Part shown: positions 1,912 to 25,434 of the stretch, piece after piece | Position numbering within the stretch: position 1 is the first letter of the stretch | Layout of the letters: each line of letters opens with the position of its first letter | Source: Carboxylicivirga linearis | GTDB lineage: Bacteria; Bacteroidota; Bacteroidia; Bacteroidales; Marinilabiliaceae | DNA length: 64,000 nucleotides | Assembly (NCBI RefSeq): GCF_018271995.1 | Contig: NZ_JAGUCO010000015.1 | Span: 62,001 to 126,000, forward strand | Reading direction: 5' to 3' | Position numbers and translations under genes: made by a program | Notes under the pieces: model-generated | What the model was told of the DNA's origin: nothing | Databases searched by the model: none | The model's input: only the letters and a program-made list of their open reading frames with translations

Positions 1912-2664
1912 TTAAAAGTCAATATCCGTTTCTGCAGGTAGCTCGGCAATCAGCTGCGTGGCATTGTGTCTTGCATCTACAGCCATTTCTTTCTTTATTA
2001 AACCATCGCGAAAAACAATGTTGCGTTTCATAAAACGGGCAATGTCTTCTTCGTGTGTTACAAATGCTATGGTTTTACCTTCATCGTTCAGTTTCTGAAA
2101 TAGCTCCATTATCTCGTATGAGGTGCGAGTGTCGAGGTTACCTGTTGCCTCATCAGCCAGAATCACAACCGGATCGTTAACCAGCGAACGGGCAATGGCT
2201 ACCCGTTGCTGCTGACCGCCAGAAAGCTGGTTGGGCATATGATGGAACCGATCGGCCAAACCAACCTGTTCCAATGCATGCATGGCTCTTTCGCGACGTT
2301 CTTTCGATTTAACCTTTGAGTTGTAGTACAATGGTAATTCAACGTTTTCGAGGGCTGTTGTGCGTGGCAAAAGGTTATATGATTGAAAGATGAAACCTAG
2401 TTTTGAATTTCGCAGTTGGGCCAGTTGATTCTTATTCATGTCAGCCATGTTAACCCCATCCAACAAGTAAGTACCATCGGTAGGTTTATCAAGGCATCCT
2501 AAAATATTTAGCATAGTTGATTTGCCCGAACCACTTGTGCCCATAATGGCTGCAAAGTCTCCTTCTTTAATTTCCATGTTGATTTTGCGAAGAGCATGAA
2601 CCGTCATCTCACCAACAGGATAGTCTTTTTTTAAGTCTTTGACTTCTATAATGGTTTTTTGCAT
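1912..2664 (-). CDS. MacB/LolD-type ABC transporter ATP-binding protein
   Basis: A 250-residue cytoplasmic ATPase with Walker A (GTSGSGKS), signature LSGGQQQRVAIARSL, Walker B (VILADEATGNLD) and the H-loop (FVTHEED). It is a stand-alone ATPase that pairs with the separate permease encoded next, as in many Bacteroidota, whereas E. coli MacB is a fused protein. The start at 2664 (MQKTIIEVKDLKKDYPVG) fits the family; the frame stays open another 41 codons upstream, but that extension runs into the structured repeat at 2.75-2.9 kb and has no family similarity. It powers the efflux pump by driving conformational change of the permease. Confidence 0.93.
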   Translation of the reverse strand: MQKTIIEVKDLKKDYPVGEMTVHALRKINMEIKEGDFAAIMGTSGSGKSTMLNILGCLDKPTDGTYLLDGVNMADMNKNQLAQLRNSKLGFIFQSYNLLPRTTALENVELPLYYNSKVKSKERRERAMHALEQVGLADRFHHMPNQLSGGQQQRVAIARSLVNDPVVILADEATGNLDTRTSYEIMELFQKLNDEGKTIAFVTHEEDIARFMKRNIVFRDGLIKKEMAVDARHNATQLIAELPAETDIDF

Positions 2665-2745
2665 GATATTTTTTTTAATGATGATTGTTGTCGTACCAGA
2701 ATAATCATTGAATTGATCTTTGCCGCTCAAGCCGCGGGGGCTTTT

Positions 2746-2912
2746 CATTTCTTGTCTTGATACAAGAAACGAAACAAAGAAAATCAAGGCTGCATTGGAA
2801 ATGACCCAAGTTTATTTGTTGAACCTAAGTGCGGCCGGGTGATTTTCGAGCGAAGCTCTCAACTTCCCGGTCTTACTAATGTTCAACTTCTTAACAATCC
2901 TCATTTCCAATG
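2746..2912. repeat. Structured intercistronic repeat R2, copy A
   Basis: About 160 bases inside the efflux operon match, in inverted orientation, a block at 23143-23310. Shared blocks are CTTGATxxAAGAAACG, CAAAGAAAATCAAGGCTGCA, CCTAAGTGCGGCCGGGTGA and TTCCCGGTCTTACTAATG. Paired arms in this copy are 2793-2804 with 2901-2912, 2818-2824 with 2881-2887, 2835-2839 with 2866-2870, and 2848-2851 with 2855-2858. Three of these stems have different sequences but intact pairing in copy B. It lies between the adaptor and ATPase genes and would be part of their mRNA. This is a structured RNA or DNA element of unknown function. Confidence 0.8.
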
Positions 2913-2958
2913 AGGCCGAACCGGTATAATTATGATTTACATGTCTTACTCCTTACGT

Positions 2959-4191
2959 TTACTTTTTATTTCGTTGCGGTGGCTTCGGCATAAATGGATT
3001 GCCTCCTGCAGCCTCAGGAGCCTGCTCTTGAGCGTTCTTCTGCTCCATTTTTAATACAACCATATCACCCTCTTTCAATCCATCCAATACTTCGGCATTA
3101 ATGTCATCGTCCATGCCCAGCTTTACTGGAACCGGTTGTATCATCGAATCTCTTTTTACCCAGATCATATCCTGATTTTGTCCTTCTCCATCCATCGGGG
3201 GCATGCCTTCTGTTGGCGCATCCTGTGGCATTGGAGGTTGCGGTGTGTTTTGCATATAACTCATCATCAATTGTTGATCGGGTTCGAAACGAGCGGCTTT
3301 ACTTGGAACGGTTAGAATATCTTTTTTCTCAACCACAAAAATGTTTGTCTCGGCAGTTAAGCCAGGCATCAGCTTATAATCGGGGTTGGGAGCAATAATA
3401 ATGATGGTGTAAGTCACTACATTATTGGTAACAGTTGGCTCCAAACGAACTTCTGTTACTTCACCTTCGAAAATCTCGTTCGGATAAGCATCAACTGTAA
3501 ACTCAACACGTTGACCTTTCTTTACCTGACCTATATCAGCTTCATCCACATTGGCCTCAACCTGCATTTGGGTTAAGTCTTTTACAATGGTGAAAAGGGT
3601 AGGGGTTTCGAAGCTGGCAGCTACGGTTTGTCCTTCCTCAACGGCTTTATTTAAAACCACTCCGTTGATGGGTGAATAAATCATTGCAAAATCGAGGTTG
3701 ATAAGGTTTTGGCGATGTTGAGCCAGGGCACTTTTGTAGTTAGCCTTGGCAACATTAAAATTGTAAACTGTTTCGTCGTATTCCGACTGTGCAATCAGCT
3801 CTTTTTCGAACAAAGGCTTTAATCGGTTGTAGTTAGCTTGTTGAAAATCCATTTGAGCTTTGGCATTATCGAGCGAAGCCTGACTTTGTTCAACAGCAGC
3901 TGCTAAGTTAGTGGTGTCGATACGAGCCAGTAACTGACCTTCTTTAACTGTTGAGTTAAAATCAACATAAATATTTTCGATGATACCCGATACCTGTGTA
4001 CCTACATCAACACTGGTAATGGCTTCAAGAGTGCCCGTTGCAGTAACGGTACTGCTAATGGTTCCGCGTTTTACTATGCCTGTTTCTATATCAATTTGAT
4101 CAGGACTGATAGTACTTGGTTTTAGCATGAAAAATGCTGTTATGATGGCTGCCAGAACCAACGCTGATATGATGATAATTTTACGTTTCAT
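2959..4191 (-). CDS. MacA-like periplasmic adaptor (HlyD/RND family)
   Basis: A 410-residue membrane-fusion protein. An N-terminal signal anchor (IIIISALVLAAIITAFFML) precedes the first half of a lipoyl domain (GTLEAITSVDVGTQVSGII, about 55-95), a coiled-coil hairpin (about 100-165), the second lipoyl half (YSPINGVVLNKAVEEGQTV) and beta-barrel and proximal domains. The C-terminus carries a Pro/Met/Gln-rich insertion (about 315-345) and a Lys/Pro tail. It should link the MacB-type permease to the TolC channel. The gene sits 75 bases downstream of the TolC gene and is separated from the ATPase gene by the R2 element. The family assignment is firm; the name macA is used only by analogy. Confidence 0.92.
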   Translation of the reverse strand: MKRKIIIISALVLAAIITAFFMLKPSTISPDQIDIETGIVKRGTISSTVTATGTLEAITSVDVGTQVSGIIENIYVDFNSTVKEGQLLARIDTTNLAAAVEQSQASLDNAKAQMDFQQANYNRLKPLFEKELIAQSEYDETVYNFNVAKANYKSALAQHRQNLINLDFAMIYSPINGVVLNKAVEEGQTVAASFETPTLFTIVKDLTQMQVEANVDEADIGQVKKGQRVEFTVDAYPNEIFEGEVTEVRLEPTVTNNVVTYTIIIIAPNPDYKLMPGLTAETNIFVVEKKDILTVPSKAARFEPDQQLMMSYMQNTPQPPMPQDAPTEGMPPMDGEGQNQDMIWVKRDSMIQPVPVKLGMDDDINAEVLDGLKEGDMVVLKMEQKNAQEQAPEAAGGNPFMPKPPQRNKK

Positions 4192-22675: not shown

Positions 22676-23107
22676 ATGGTGTTAGGATTAGCCTCTGATC
22701 ACGCCGGATATGAGATGAAGGAATTCATCAAACAATATCTTTTGGGGAAAGGGTATTCGGTGAACGATTATGGAACAAACAGCGGAGATAGTTGCGATTA
22801 TGCCGACTATGCTCATCCCTTGGCGGAAGCTGTAGAAAAAGGCGAAAATCAATTTGGTTTAGCTTTTTGCGGAAGTGGTAACGGTATTAATATAAGCTTG
22901 AATCGCCATAAAGGTATTCGATCAGCTTATTGTTGGAAAACAGAAATAGCAGAATTAGCCCGCCTTCATAACGACGCTAATATTTGCACTGTTCCGGCCC
23001 GTTTTATCGAAAAAGATCTTTGCATTGAAATTATTGAAAAGTTTTTGGCCACAGCTTTTGAAGGTGGAAGACATCAATGCAGAATTGAAAAAATTGAAAT
23101 AGAATAG
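22676..23107 (+). CDS. rpiB: Ribose-5-phosphate isomerase B family protein
   Basis: A 143-residue sugar-phosphate isomerase of the RpiB/LacAB family. It shows the opening GLASDHAGYEMKEFIKQYL, catalytic-loop FGLAFCGSGNGINISLNRHKGIR with the active Cys and the GSGNG anion hole, and ARLHNDANICTVPARFI. In the cytoplasm it should interconvert ribose-5-phosphate and ribulose-5-phosphate. Lying between araB and transketolase, it completes a block that feeds arabinose carbon into the non-oxidative pentose phosphate pathway. A related aldose-phosphate substrate cannot be excluded. Confidence 0.88.
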   Translation: MVLGLASDHAGYEMKEFIKQYLLGKGYSVNDYGTNSGDSCDYADYAHPLAEAVEKGENQFGLAFCGSGNGINISLNRHKGIRSAYCWKTEIAELARLHNDANICTVPARFIEKDLCIEIIEKFLATAFEGGRHQCRIEKIEIE

Positions 23108-23130
23108 CATATTTTAATTGTACTGATTGG

Positions 23131-23310
23131 CCTCAAGAGGGATGATGATTTTTGGAAGATAAACATTAGTAAGACCGGGAAGCTGATCCGGCAACTGCCG
23201 GAGTAGATCACCCGGCCGCACTTAGGTTTATCAAATAAAAAGAAATCATCACTATTGCAGCCTTGATTTTCTTTGTTTCGTTTCTTTTATCAAGAAAAGA
23301 AATGGATAAA
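23131..23310. repeat. Structured intercistronic repeat R2, copy B
   Basis: Inverted relative to copy A at 2.75-2.91 kb but in the same sense relative to its neighbouring genes. Pairing arms are 23143-23151 with 23243-23251, 23158-23164 with 23226-23232, 23175-23179 with 23211-23215, and TCCGGC/GCCGGA (23187-23202). A tail with CAGCCTTGATTTTCTTTG ends in AAGAAAAGAAATGG-type sequence. The element lies between rpiB and transketolase genes and ends about 97 bases before the latter. Confidence 0.8.
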
Positions 23311-23406
23311 AAATAGAAGTCAAAGTGTTGAGTGGCTTAATGAAGTGTACAATTAGAGTTATGAGTAAGAGATACAATAAATATAACTATAACTAAGAAT
23401 CAAATT

Positions 23407-25434
23407 ATGGCAAGTGCTGCACAAAAAGGTGCTGATAACATTCGTATTTTATCAGCGGCAATGGTTGAAAAAGCCAAATCAGGTCACCCAGGCGGAGCAA
23501 TGGGTGGAGCTGACTTTGTAAACATTTTATACTCTGAATTCTTAAACTACGATCCAGCGAACATGACTAATCCGTTCCGCGATCGTTTCTTCCTGGATCC
23601 TGGTCACATGTCACCAATGTTGTATAGCGTTTTGGCGTTGTCAGGATTTTACTCAACTGACGATTTAGCACAATTCCGTCAGTGGGATAGCGTAACACCG
23701 GGTCACCCTGAGGTGGACGTGTTACGTGGTGTTGAAAATACATCTGGTCCTCTTGGACAAGGTCATACAATGGCAGTTGGTGCTGCTATCACTGAGCGTT
23801 TCTTAGCGGCTCGTTTCGGTGAGTGGACTGCTCATAAAACTTATGCATTCATTTCTGACGGTGGTGTTCAGGAAGAGATCAGCCAGGGTGCTGGTCGTAT
23901 TGCAGGTTTCTTAGGTTTGAGTAACCTGATTATGTATTACGATTCAAACGACATCCAGTTGTCAACTACAACTGCTGAAGTGACTGCTGAAGATGTTGCT
24001 AAAAAATATGAAGCATGGGGATGGAGTGTTGTGACTATCGATGGTCATGACGAAGCTCAAATCCGCAAAGCTATTGTTGATGCTCAGGCTGAAACAGAAA
24101 AACCAACTCTTATCATTGGTAAAACAATTATGGGTAAAGGTGCTGTTACTGCTGCTGGCGAAAGCTTCGAGCGTAAAACATCAACTCACGGACAGCCTCT
24201 TTCTGCTGCTGGTGCCGATTTCAAAGCTACTATTAATAACTTAGGTGGCGACGGTGAGAATCCTTTCGTTATCTTCCCTGAAGTTGCTGACACATACGCA
24301 AAACGTAAAGAAGAGTTGAAAGCATGGGCTACTGAGCAAGCGGCTACTCAAAAAGAATGGGCTGCTGCTAATCCTGAATTAGCTGCTAAATTAGACCAAT
24401 TCTTCTCAGGTAAATTACCTGAAATTGATTGGGCTGGTATTGAGCAAAAAGCTAACTCAGCTACTCGTGGTGCTTCTGCAACTGTATTATCTGTATTGGC
24501 TGATAAAGTAGAAAACATGATTGTTGCTTCTGCTGACTTGGCTAACTCTGATAAAACAGACGGTTTCTTAAAGAAAACAACTGCTTTCACTAAAGGTGAT
24601 TTCTCAGGAGCATTCTTCCAGGCTGGTGTTTGTGAGTTAACAATGGCTGTTATCATGAATGGTATGGCATTGCACGGTGGTGTGATTCCTGCTTGTGGTA
24701 CTTTCTTTGTATTCTCTGACTACATGAAACCAGCGGTTCGTTTGGCTGCTTTAATGCAATTACCAGTTAAATATATCTGGACACATGATGCTTTCCGCGT
24801 AGGAGAAGATGGTCCTACTCACCAGCCGGTTGAGCAAGAAGCTCAAATCCGTTTGATGGAGAAATTGAAAAACCATCACGGCGAGAACTCTACATTGGTT
24901 CTTCGTCCTGCTGATGCTGTCGAGGCTACTGTTGCCTGGAAAATGGCGTTGGAAAACACAAAAACTCCAACTGCAATGATTTTCTCTCGTCAGAATATCA
25001 CTGATCTTCCAGCTGCATCGGGTAATCGTTACGAAGAAGCATTACAAGCTGCAAAAGGAGCTTACATTGTTGACGATTGCGAAGGTACTCCTGATGTAAT
25101 CTTGTTGGCTAGTGGTTCTGAGGTAGCTACTTTGGTTGAAGGTTCGGTTAAATTAAAAGCCGACGGTGTAAAAGTACGTATTGTATCTGTTCCTTCTGAA
25201 GGATTATTTACATCTCAACCAAAAGAGTACCGTCAATCAGTATTGCCTGCTGGTGTTGCTAAATTTGGTTTAACTGCCGGTTTACCTGTAACCTTAGAAG
25301 GTTTAGTAGGTGCCGACGGTATTGTAGCTGGTTTAGATCATTTTGGTTATTCAGCACCTTACACTGTGTTGGATGAAAAATTTGGTTTTACAGCTGATGC
25401 TGTATACAAAAACGTAAAGACGTTATTGGGTTAA
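23407..25434 (+). CDS. tkt: Transketolase
   Basis: A 675-residue full-length transketolase. The thiamine-diphosphate domain contains KSGHPGGAMGGADF, LGQGHTMAVGAAITERF and FISDGGVQEEISQGAGRIAG; the pyrimidine domain contains AGVCELTMAVIMNGMALHGG and THDAFRVGEDGPTHQPVEQE; the C-terminal domain follows from about residue 545. It transfers two-carbon units between xylulose-5-phosphate and aldose phosphates. Codon use is strongly biased, suggesting high expression. It stands downstream of the ara locus and the R2 element and upstream of a strong terminator. Confidence 0.97.
   Translation: MASAAQKGADNIRILSAAMVEKAKSGHPGGAMGGADFVNILYSEFLNYDPANMTNPFRDRFFLDPGHMSPMLYSVLALSGFYSTDDLAQFRQWDSVTPGHPEVDVLRGVENTSGPLGQGHTMAVGAAITERFLAARFGEWTAHKTYAFISDGGVQEEISQGAGRIAGFLGLSNLIMYYDSNDIQLSTTTAEVTAEDVAKKYEAWGWSVVTIDGHDEAQIRKAIVDAQAETEKPTLIIGKTIMGKGAVTAAGESFERKTSTHGQPLSAAGADFKATINNLGGDGENPFVIFPEVADTYAKRKEELKAWATEQAATQKEWAAANPELAAKLDQFFSGKLPEIDWAGIEQKANSATRGASATVLSVLADKVENMIVASADLANSDKTDGFLKKTTAFTKGDFSGAFFQAGVCELTMAVIMNGMALHGGVIPACGTFFVFSDYMKPAVRLAALMQLPVKYIWTHDAFRVGEDGPTHQPVEQEAQIRLMEKLKNHHGENSTLVLRPADAVEATVAWKMALENTKTPTAMIFSRQNITDLPAASGNRYEEALQAAKGAYIVDDCEGTPDVILLASGSEVATLVEGSVKLKADGVKVRIVSVPSEGLFTSQPKEYRQSVLPAGVAKFGLTAGLPVTLEGLVGADGIVAGLDHFGYSAPYTVLDEKFGFTADAVYKNVKTLLG

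Follow-up and report, generated by a model that had tools for sequence, protein, structure and literature searches.

Two stretches of the window, by which we mean the whole 64,000 nucleotides of Carboxylicivirga linearis DNA that were analysed, share conserved blocks set among stems that differ in sequence and still pair, and they raise the question of what kind of element this is and why its pairing is kept. The earlier note had described a two-copy element. Both copies are indeed found at 2793-2912 (+) and 23143-23251 (-), with the stems that were quoted. However, the true unit is larger than 2793-2912, since a leader hairpin with a pseudoknot at 2746-2793 of copy 1 had been overlooked, and its own genome (G000) has 26 BLAST matches and 30 covariance-model matches rather than two copies. 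Table 1 gives the features of both window copies. Each copy likely sits within an operon (HlyD to ABC ATPase, and rpiB to transketolase), with its folding strand in sense with the neighbours, and both are kept in the complete genome of a relative (G001). On either strand, both copies have a significantly more stable fold than dinucleotide-shuffled sequence, with z scores of -5.8 for copy 1 and -5.3 for copy 2 on the strand read, and -3.9 and -5.4 on its complement. No target duplication is visible around either window copy.

Table 1. Features of the two window copies and their neighbouring genes.
Feature	Position in window	Strand	Basis
Copy 1, whole putative mobile unit	about 2675..2943	folding strand -, that of the flanking genes	ends placed by eye against homologous copies of the own genome, among them the young L005/L006
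Copy 1, 5' GC element, possible small pseudoknot N4-3nt-AGCC-N'4-GGCT	2724..2743		terminator-like hairpin on + strand
Copy 1, leader hairpin TTTCTTG/CAAGAAA, loop CTTGAT pairing with ATCAAG (H-type pseudoknot)	2746..2793	-	two-sided changes over 72 copies
Copy 1, long hairpin: conserved core within variable stems (outer, small, middle, apical)	2788..2917	-	the 2793-2912 of the earlier note; folding z, arm swap, covariation
Copy 1, conserved core AAGTGCGGCCGGGTGAT ... CTTCCCGGTCTTACTAA (as read on +)	2827..2879	-	alignment of copies
Copy 2, whole putative mobile unit	about 23107..23380	folding strand +, that of the flanking genes	ends by eye, with less support than those of copy 1
Copy 2, structured module comprising leader pseudoknot plus long hairpin	23129..23304	+	covariance-model match, 165.6 bits (G000:C66:85129-85304, -)
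HlyD-type membrane-fusion protein, upstream of copy 1	2959..4191	-	Pfam HlyD_D23, 1.4e-26
ABC transporter ATPase, downstream of copy 1	1912..2664	-	Pfam ABC_tran, 8.6e-33; start codon picked by eye
RpiB-type sugar-phosphate isomerase, upstream of copy 2	22676..23107	+	Pfam LacAB_rpiB, 9.2e-53
Transketolase, downstream of copy 2	23407..25434	+	Pfam Transketolase_N, 3.9e-88

A covariance model (R1) built from 24 own-genome copies has matches in 20 of 40 genomes, the own genome included. Our comparison set consists of 127 distinct copies from the own genome and its relatives, 123 of them above 75 bits. It derives from 140 matches in a first set, less 41 (for the most part true copies matched on their opposite strand, with some partial matches and a single locus present twice), and 51 matches in a second set, less 19 (copies already in the set, one cut off, and opposite-strand or weak matches), after removal of four identical copies. 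Across the phylum, R1 has matches in 16 of 296 genomes (own included), the others being weak at 37-66 bits. The exact core pattern, a search biased toward the core, is present in 38 stretches of named records, mostly Marinilabiliaceae, Marinifilum/Labilibaculum/Ancylomarina and Prolixibacteraceae; two of the contigs bear the label Flavobacteriaceae and two Crocinitomicaceae. The plasmid and phage collections, searched in blastn mode, held no match to the element. For 14 of the 26 own loci, the loci fetched from G001 include an orthologue with a long match. At two loci (L142:1501-2380 and L118:1501-2133), copies in the same orientation lie about 400-460 bp apart, as if the unit had been tandemly amplified.

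Every copy has a leader hairpin with a loop that pairs downstream to form a pseudoknot, followed by a hairpin of about 125 nt that holds a conserved core among variable yet complementary stems. The 5' hairpin of the aligned copies reads TTTCTTG-tCTTGATa-CAAGAAA, and its loop is complementary to ATCAAG just 5' of the long hairpin. Over 72 copies, in alignments fitted to the model structure and thus leaning towards the model (as do those behind the wobble counts below), two-sided changes occurred in 45 of the 53 pairs, 90.2% of cells were paired, and the covariation score was 0.418, against 0.125 when shuffled and at most 0.093 with partners slid. All seven pairs of leader helix 1 and all five of helix 2, the pseudoknot, had two-sided changes; the small stem was weakest (63.7% paired), and the asymmetric core was retained in nearly all copies. 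An arm-swap test, which is independent of the alignment, was run on the copies above 75 bits, 123 in all, of which 119 could be parsed and 4 could not: own arms gave -8.97 kcal/mol versus -2.68 swapped for the outer stem, -5.40 versus -1.67 for the middle stem and -7.57 versus -4.33 for the apical stem. The two-sided pairs and the arm swap together bear out the claim of covarying stems around a constant CCGGG/CCCGG core. A small GC element (N4-3nt-AGCC-N'4-GGC) lies upstream of the leader in 67 of 123 copies, and its arms form 2.89 of 4 pairs, compared with 1.94 when swapped and 2.37 in the best of 200 shuffles (27 distinct arm pairs, 7 of them perfect). In one own-genome copy (L005:1470-1520), the leader linker contains 19 nt of hairpin-like inserted sequence (CCTGCCAGCAGCAGGCTGG), which the near-identical copy L006 lacks.

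The same leader also occurs with a different core. By eye, about 14 of the 19 weak R1 loci that were printed share the leader and closing pairs and have a core like AACTCGCTNCGCTCAAACAG between complementary arms. The earlier description stands for the main stems; it missed both the leader pseudoknot and this sister family. The exact core-2 motif is present in 9 of 395 genomes (own included), and core-2 units have no match in Rfam; their stems align poorly. The sister-family loci L268-L285 (e.g. L268, L271, L275, L278 and L283), from Bacteroidota genomes, have complementary stems of their own. Core-2 units were also found between IS4-type ends; such ends are not visible by eye around the core-2 elements of genome G312, where a stop codon precedes four of the six elements by 14-91 nt, the complement being in sense, and the other two do not fit. 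Within 11 kb of that genome (G312:C1:597201-608454, L296) there are four sister elements in one orientation, each 14-91 nt after a stop codon.

How did the copies come to be dispersed? The ends CAATNNNGTCCTAA..TTAGGACNNNATTG delimit copies of the G007/Labilibaculum/Ancylomarina type, a pattern seen 31 times in G007 and 27 times in G005, against 6 and 5 for the reversed control; in G040 (6 versus 5) and G041 (2 versus 5) it is only at the level of that control. Eleven fetched units measure 281-331 bp, three having the window's core at more than 115 bits and the rest mostly the second core. Among 20 end-bounded units with the leader, a 9-bp target duplication was found at no more than one mismatch in 15 and exactly in 10; among the eight with the window's core, the respective numbers are 6 and 3. 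End-bounded units are 281-384 bp long, with no transposase gene inside. Their ends are shared, over 14-20 bp, with a transposon at L213 (G007:C109:72694-75524), and L262 is an intact 1341-bp transposon of the IS4 family (4.6e-80) with matching ends, a 402-codon open frame and the 9-bp duplication ATTTTACAC on both sides. By their IS-shared terminal inverted repeats, 9-bp duplication and lack of an internal transposase, the sister-type units (G005, G007, Ancylomarina and Labilibaculum) look like MITEs of an IS4-family transposon. In the L213 transposon, the DUF4372/DDE_Tnp_1 transposase is in two pieces and a DDE_5 transposase gene is nested within.

Presumably, units of this part of the family are moved in trans by an IS4-family transposase (DUF4372 plus DDE_Tnp_1). 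When ten DUF4372-type loci were fetched, L262 had the MITE ends, L258, L260, L264 and L266 had other ends with 9-bp duplications, and the remaining five had no supported ends. Counting against this source, the own genome (G000) as well as G004, G010 and G011 have copies and lack a DUF4372 gene. The ends of the window-type copies of the own genome differ from the IS4-type ends. Two of these copies, L005 and L006, have other ends, with 9-bp duplications TAAATTATT and TTATTTATT recognised by eye. A search for the corresponding transposon yielded, apart from known copies, end patterns at or below the reversed control and no full-length transposon. Comparison of G000 with G001 revealed empty sites, in that L019 and the first copy of L109 have counterpart loci without the element; at L101, the counterpart holds other sequence at the element's place. 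The family is mobile; its transposon nature has good support in the sister type, and for the window's own type we infer it. The earlier note would have yielded to evidence that the element is merely the end of a known transposon. A transposon link does exist, in sister copies at least, which are MITEs with terminal repeats and target duplications, but the fold is interior cargo and not an end.

Several known systems invite comparison. ERIC and the Bacillus bcr1 element are intergenic repeats of 100-200 nt, imperfect palindromes that can fold as RNA, and the structure of bcr1 is reportedly conserved. The present element differs from them in its phylum, its sequence and ends, and the extent to which its stem sequence is free to vary. 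An integron attC site was set aside, as the genes between neighbouring copies look, by eye, like ordinary chromosomal genes. The earlier statement that no named RNA family has this pattern holds, in that no Rfam 15 family reaches its gathering cut-off in the window plus seven further loci; permissive searches, including those around copy 1, gave sub-threshold matches only. Flavo-1 (RF01705) resembles the element in belonging to Bacteroidota and in having dozens of copies per genome. It was rejected, with a best E of 0.86 in the own genome and matches above cut-off in 2 of 12 genomes, neither of the own genus; its model has 94-100 matches in each of two other genomes. G109 and G380, of the same class, carry about 100 Flavo-1 (RF01705) matches each, another dispersed structured element. 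One paper places Flavo-1 on either side of transcripts in Flavobacterium (PMC9723704). Bacterial IS-mobilised MITEs such as that of Porphyromonas gingivalis (PMC4596501) are likewise short and geneless, with terminal inverted repeats, target duplications and many intergenic copies; in contrast to these, the interior of our element has extensive covariation, a pseudoknot, and a conserved core shared by types that have different terminal repeats. The mobile/repeat sequence candidates of PMC11109978 are structured multi-copy motifs thought to be selfish, for which it is likewise in doubt whether the RNA or the DNA form matters; its passages name no Bacteroidota motif, and the word Bacteroid is absent from the main text. 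In the open-licence literature searched, no description was recognised as this element. The family is real, mobile and structured, and no earlier account of it came to light in these resources.

We next consider which strand folds. Among 99 copies with less than 90% identity, the variable stems on the strand read comprise 1748 Watson-Crick cells, 31 G.T, 111 A.C and 271 others, and A.C exceeds G.T in 63 copies with the reverse in 10 (p = 1.6e-10). With gene contexts taken from simple longest-ORF calls, where (-,-) denotes both genes on the complement strand, (+,-) convergent and (-,+) divergent genes, the ratio of A.C to G.T is 56 to 11 in (-,-) and 21 to 5 in (+,+); the small classes are nearer even, e.g. 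9 to 9 in (.,-). An excess of A.C on the strand read is an excess of G.U on its complement, and therefore the complement is probably the folding strand, a correction to the earlier note. Two observations count against this: three core pairs are near-fixed G.T on the strand read, and thus A.C on the complement, which we take as conserved for their sequence, and copy 1 folds better as read (-54.6 versus -50.7 on the complement). GC skew is -0.108 in the elements and -0.074 in their flanks, in our judgement too small to yield a 3.6-fold excess of A.C.

The manner in which stems change bears on how pairing is kept. Between copies that are 5-10% diverged outside the variable stems, single stem changes leave A.C 222 times and G.T 28 times; paired double changes number 562 against 646 single at this divergence, and 9 against 50 below 5%, although the pairs in these counts are not independent. 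The pattern fits a stepwise route through wobble on the complement. Without any RNA function, the element could instead be a DNA palindrome in a MITE whose arms are matched by template switching during replication (quasi-palindrome correction). Indeed, changes in three orthologous pairs look as expected from template switching: in L003/L109 (L109:3209-3381 versus L003:1466-1638) the loop TCTTGATA is inverted to TATCAAGA, a signature of the process that would break the pseudoknot; in L025/L113 one arm has been re-made as the complement of the other; and in L026/L103 the apical palindrome has become perfect, erasing the usual internal loop. There is precedent in two papers, which report that template switching creates and maintains RNA hairpins (PMC8794818) and inverts spacers (PMC8604942). 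An opposite trend is seen in L023/L121, where 12 changes, all of them 5', make the fold less stable (-36.4 instead of -50.1 kcal/mol). However, template switching would not be expected to give strand-asymmetric mismatches (111 A.C to 31 G.T) or single changes (222 to 28), the GC skew being small, and it is also disfavoured by the asymmetric core, kept in nearly all of the 72 copies. As the whole explanation, we consider it unlikely. Across 13 orthologous pairs, 76 of 2230 sites differ in the element (3.4%), 44 of 1284 in the 3' flank (3.4%) and 93 of 1236 in the 5' flank (7.5%). With the element diverging no less than its 3' flank, though less than its 5' flank, settled copies give no clear sign of strong selection, and the structure may be maintained mainly in the copies that spread. 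The earlier view that compensatory change is hard to explain without selection was thus right about the covariation, which is real, but selection is not proven, as several orthologue changes resemble hairpin template switching.

Genomic position points to a place of action. Of 123 copies, 63 are in a (-,-) context, 20 in (+,+), 10 in (+,-) and 6 in (-,+), and 24 have a neighbour uncalled within 500 nt; most lie just 3' of genes with the folding strand in sense. On the complement, the long hairpin is followed by a T-rich tract, where T makes up 0.58 of the 10 nt on average over 117 copies; the other side of the hairpin has 0.23 and a control stretch 0.28. The tract is interrupted, which counts against a terminator, and a scan limited to short loops found no terminator at the long hairpin of either window copy; in copy 1 it gave a terminator-like site at 2729-2743 (+). 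Terminator and promoter scans of the window copies were little above shuffles, the promoter consensus being that of sigma-70, which may not suit this phylum. Moreover, the window copies are in likely operons kept in G001, where strong termination would shut off the gene that follows, if this gene had no promoter of its own. The 11 recent units with enough flank (5 in (-,-), 3 in (+,+), 3 other) are too few to reveal a bias. In G001, (-,-) outnumbers (+,+) by 21 to 4, and, with fork direction inferred from GC skew, 24 of the 31 copies run against replication. Replication orientation was set aside as a driver and regarded as secondary: six of the seven with-fork copies are still (-,-), and therefore gene orientation seems primary.

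Our best guess is an RNA role at gene 3' ends, the module most likely serving within the mRNA as a terminator or 3'-end structure that is portable, as judged from sequence and position. A structured module of about 170-200 nt would ride inside small non-autonomous transposons (MITEs), moved in part of the family by an IS4-family transposase supplied in trans. The complement strand would fold into the long hairpin, then the T-rich tract, then the pseudoknotted hairpin. Since most copies follow a stop codon and have the folding strand in sense, the mRNA of the upstream gene would carry this fold close to its 3' end. There it would most likely terminate or attenuate transcription or protect that end, making the insertion tolerable. 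Pairing would be maintained stepwise through G.U on the complement, with occasional template switching. We assign this combined explanation, a MITE-borne module that folds on the complement and acts near mRNA 3' ends, a probability of about 0.5.

Alternatively, the module could be a standing RNA device, a small RNA or protein-binding RNA in which the core is the binding or active site and the MITE only a vehicle. The core is the best-conserved part, including in the contigs labelled Flavobacteriaceae and Crocinitomicaceae (found by the exact-core search, with its bias), a different core is found in the same leader and ends, and the same module occurs with different terminal repeats. Against such a device, the promoter scan was at shuffle level (with the same caveat about the sigma-70 consensus), and a genome-wide search for a partner gene, covering Y1_Tnp and DUF4372, found none; we think it rather improbable. 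REP elements with their RAYT enzymes are also hairpins near gene 3' ends, but our element is much longer and has 9-bp duplications, DDE-type ends and no consistent Y1 neighbour, the Y1/RAYT association being weak. That one strand's fold serves a Y1/HUH (RAYT-like) enzyme as single-stranded DNA, as for REP elements, is very improbable: the mismatch asymmetry does prefer one strand, 24 of 31 G001 copies oppose the inferred fork and one G000 Y1_Tnp gene is about 0.4 kb from a copy, but of the Y1_Tnp genes in the two genomes where distances were checked, one of four in G000 and none of four in G001 is close to a listed copy, G012 has six Y1_Tnp matches yet no copy, the terminal inverted repeats with their 9-bp duplications speak for a DDE transposase, and gene orientation accounts for the fork bias.

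Returning to the proposed MITE-borne module acting near mRNA 3' ends, we tentatively raise a broader possibility, doubtful as it is: a Bacteroidota-wide class of transposable RNA modules with a constant pseudoknotted leader, at least two interchangeable cores within freely evolving stems and borrowed transposon ends by which they would spread and settle behind genes, each perhaps a portable 3'-end regulator recognised by a core-specific factor.

MITEs are usually regarded as passive leftovers. The interior of this element seems better kept than its ends, one fold being found with different terminal repeats. If the RNA does work at gene 3' ends, transposition of such elements would supply genomes with ready-made terminators or 3' structures. 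Moreover, the orthologous, fast-changing copies allow template switching to be separated from selection as a cause of RNA covariation, a question raised in PMC8794818.
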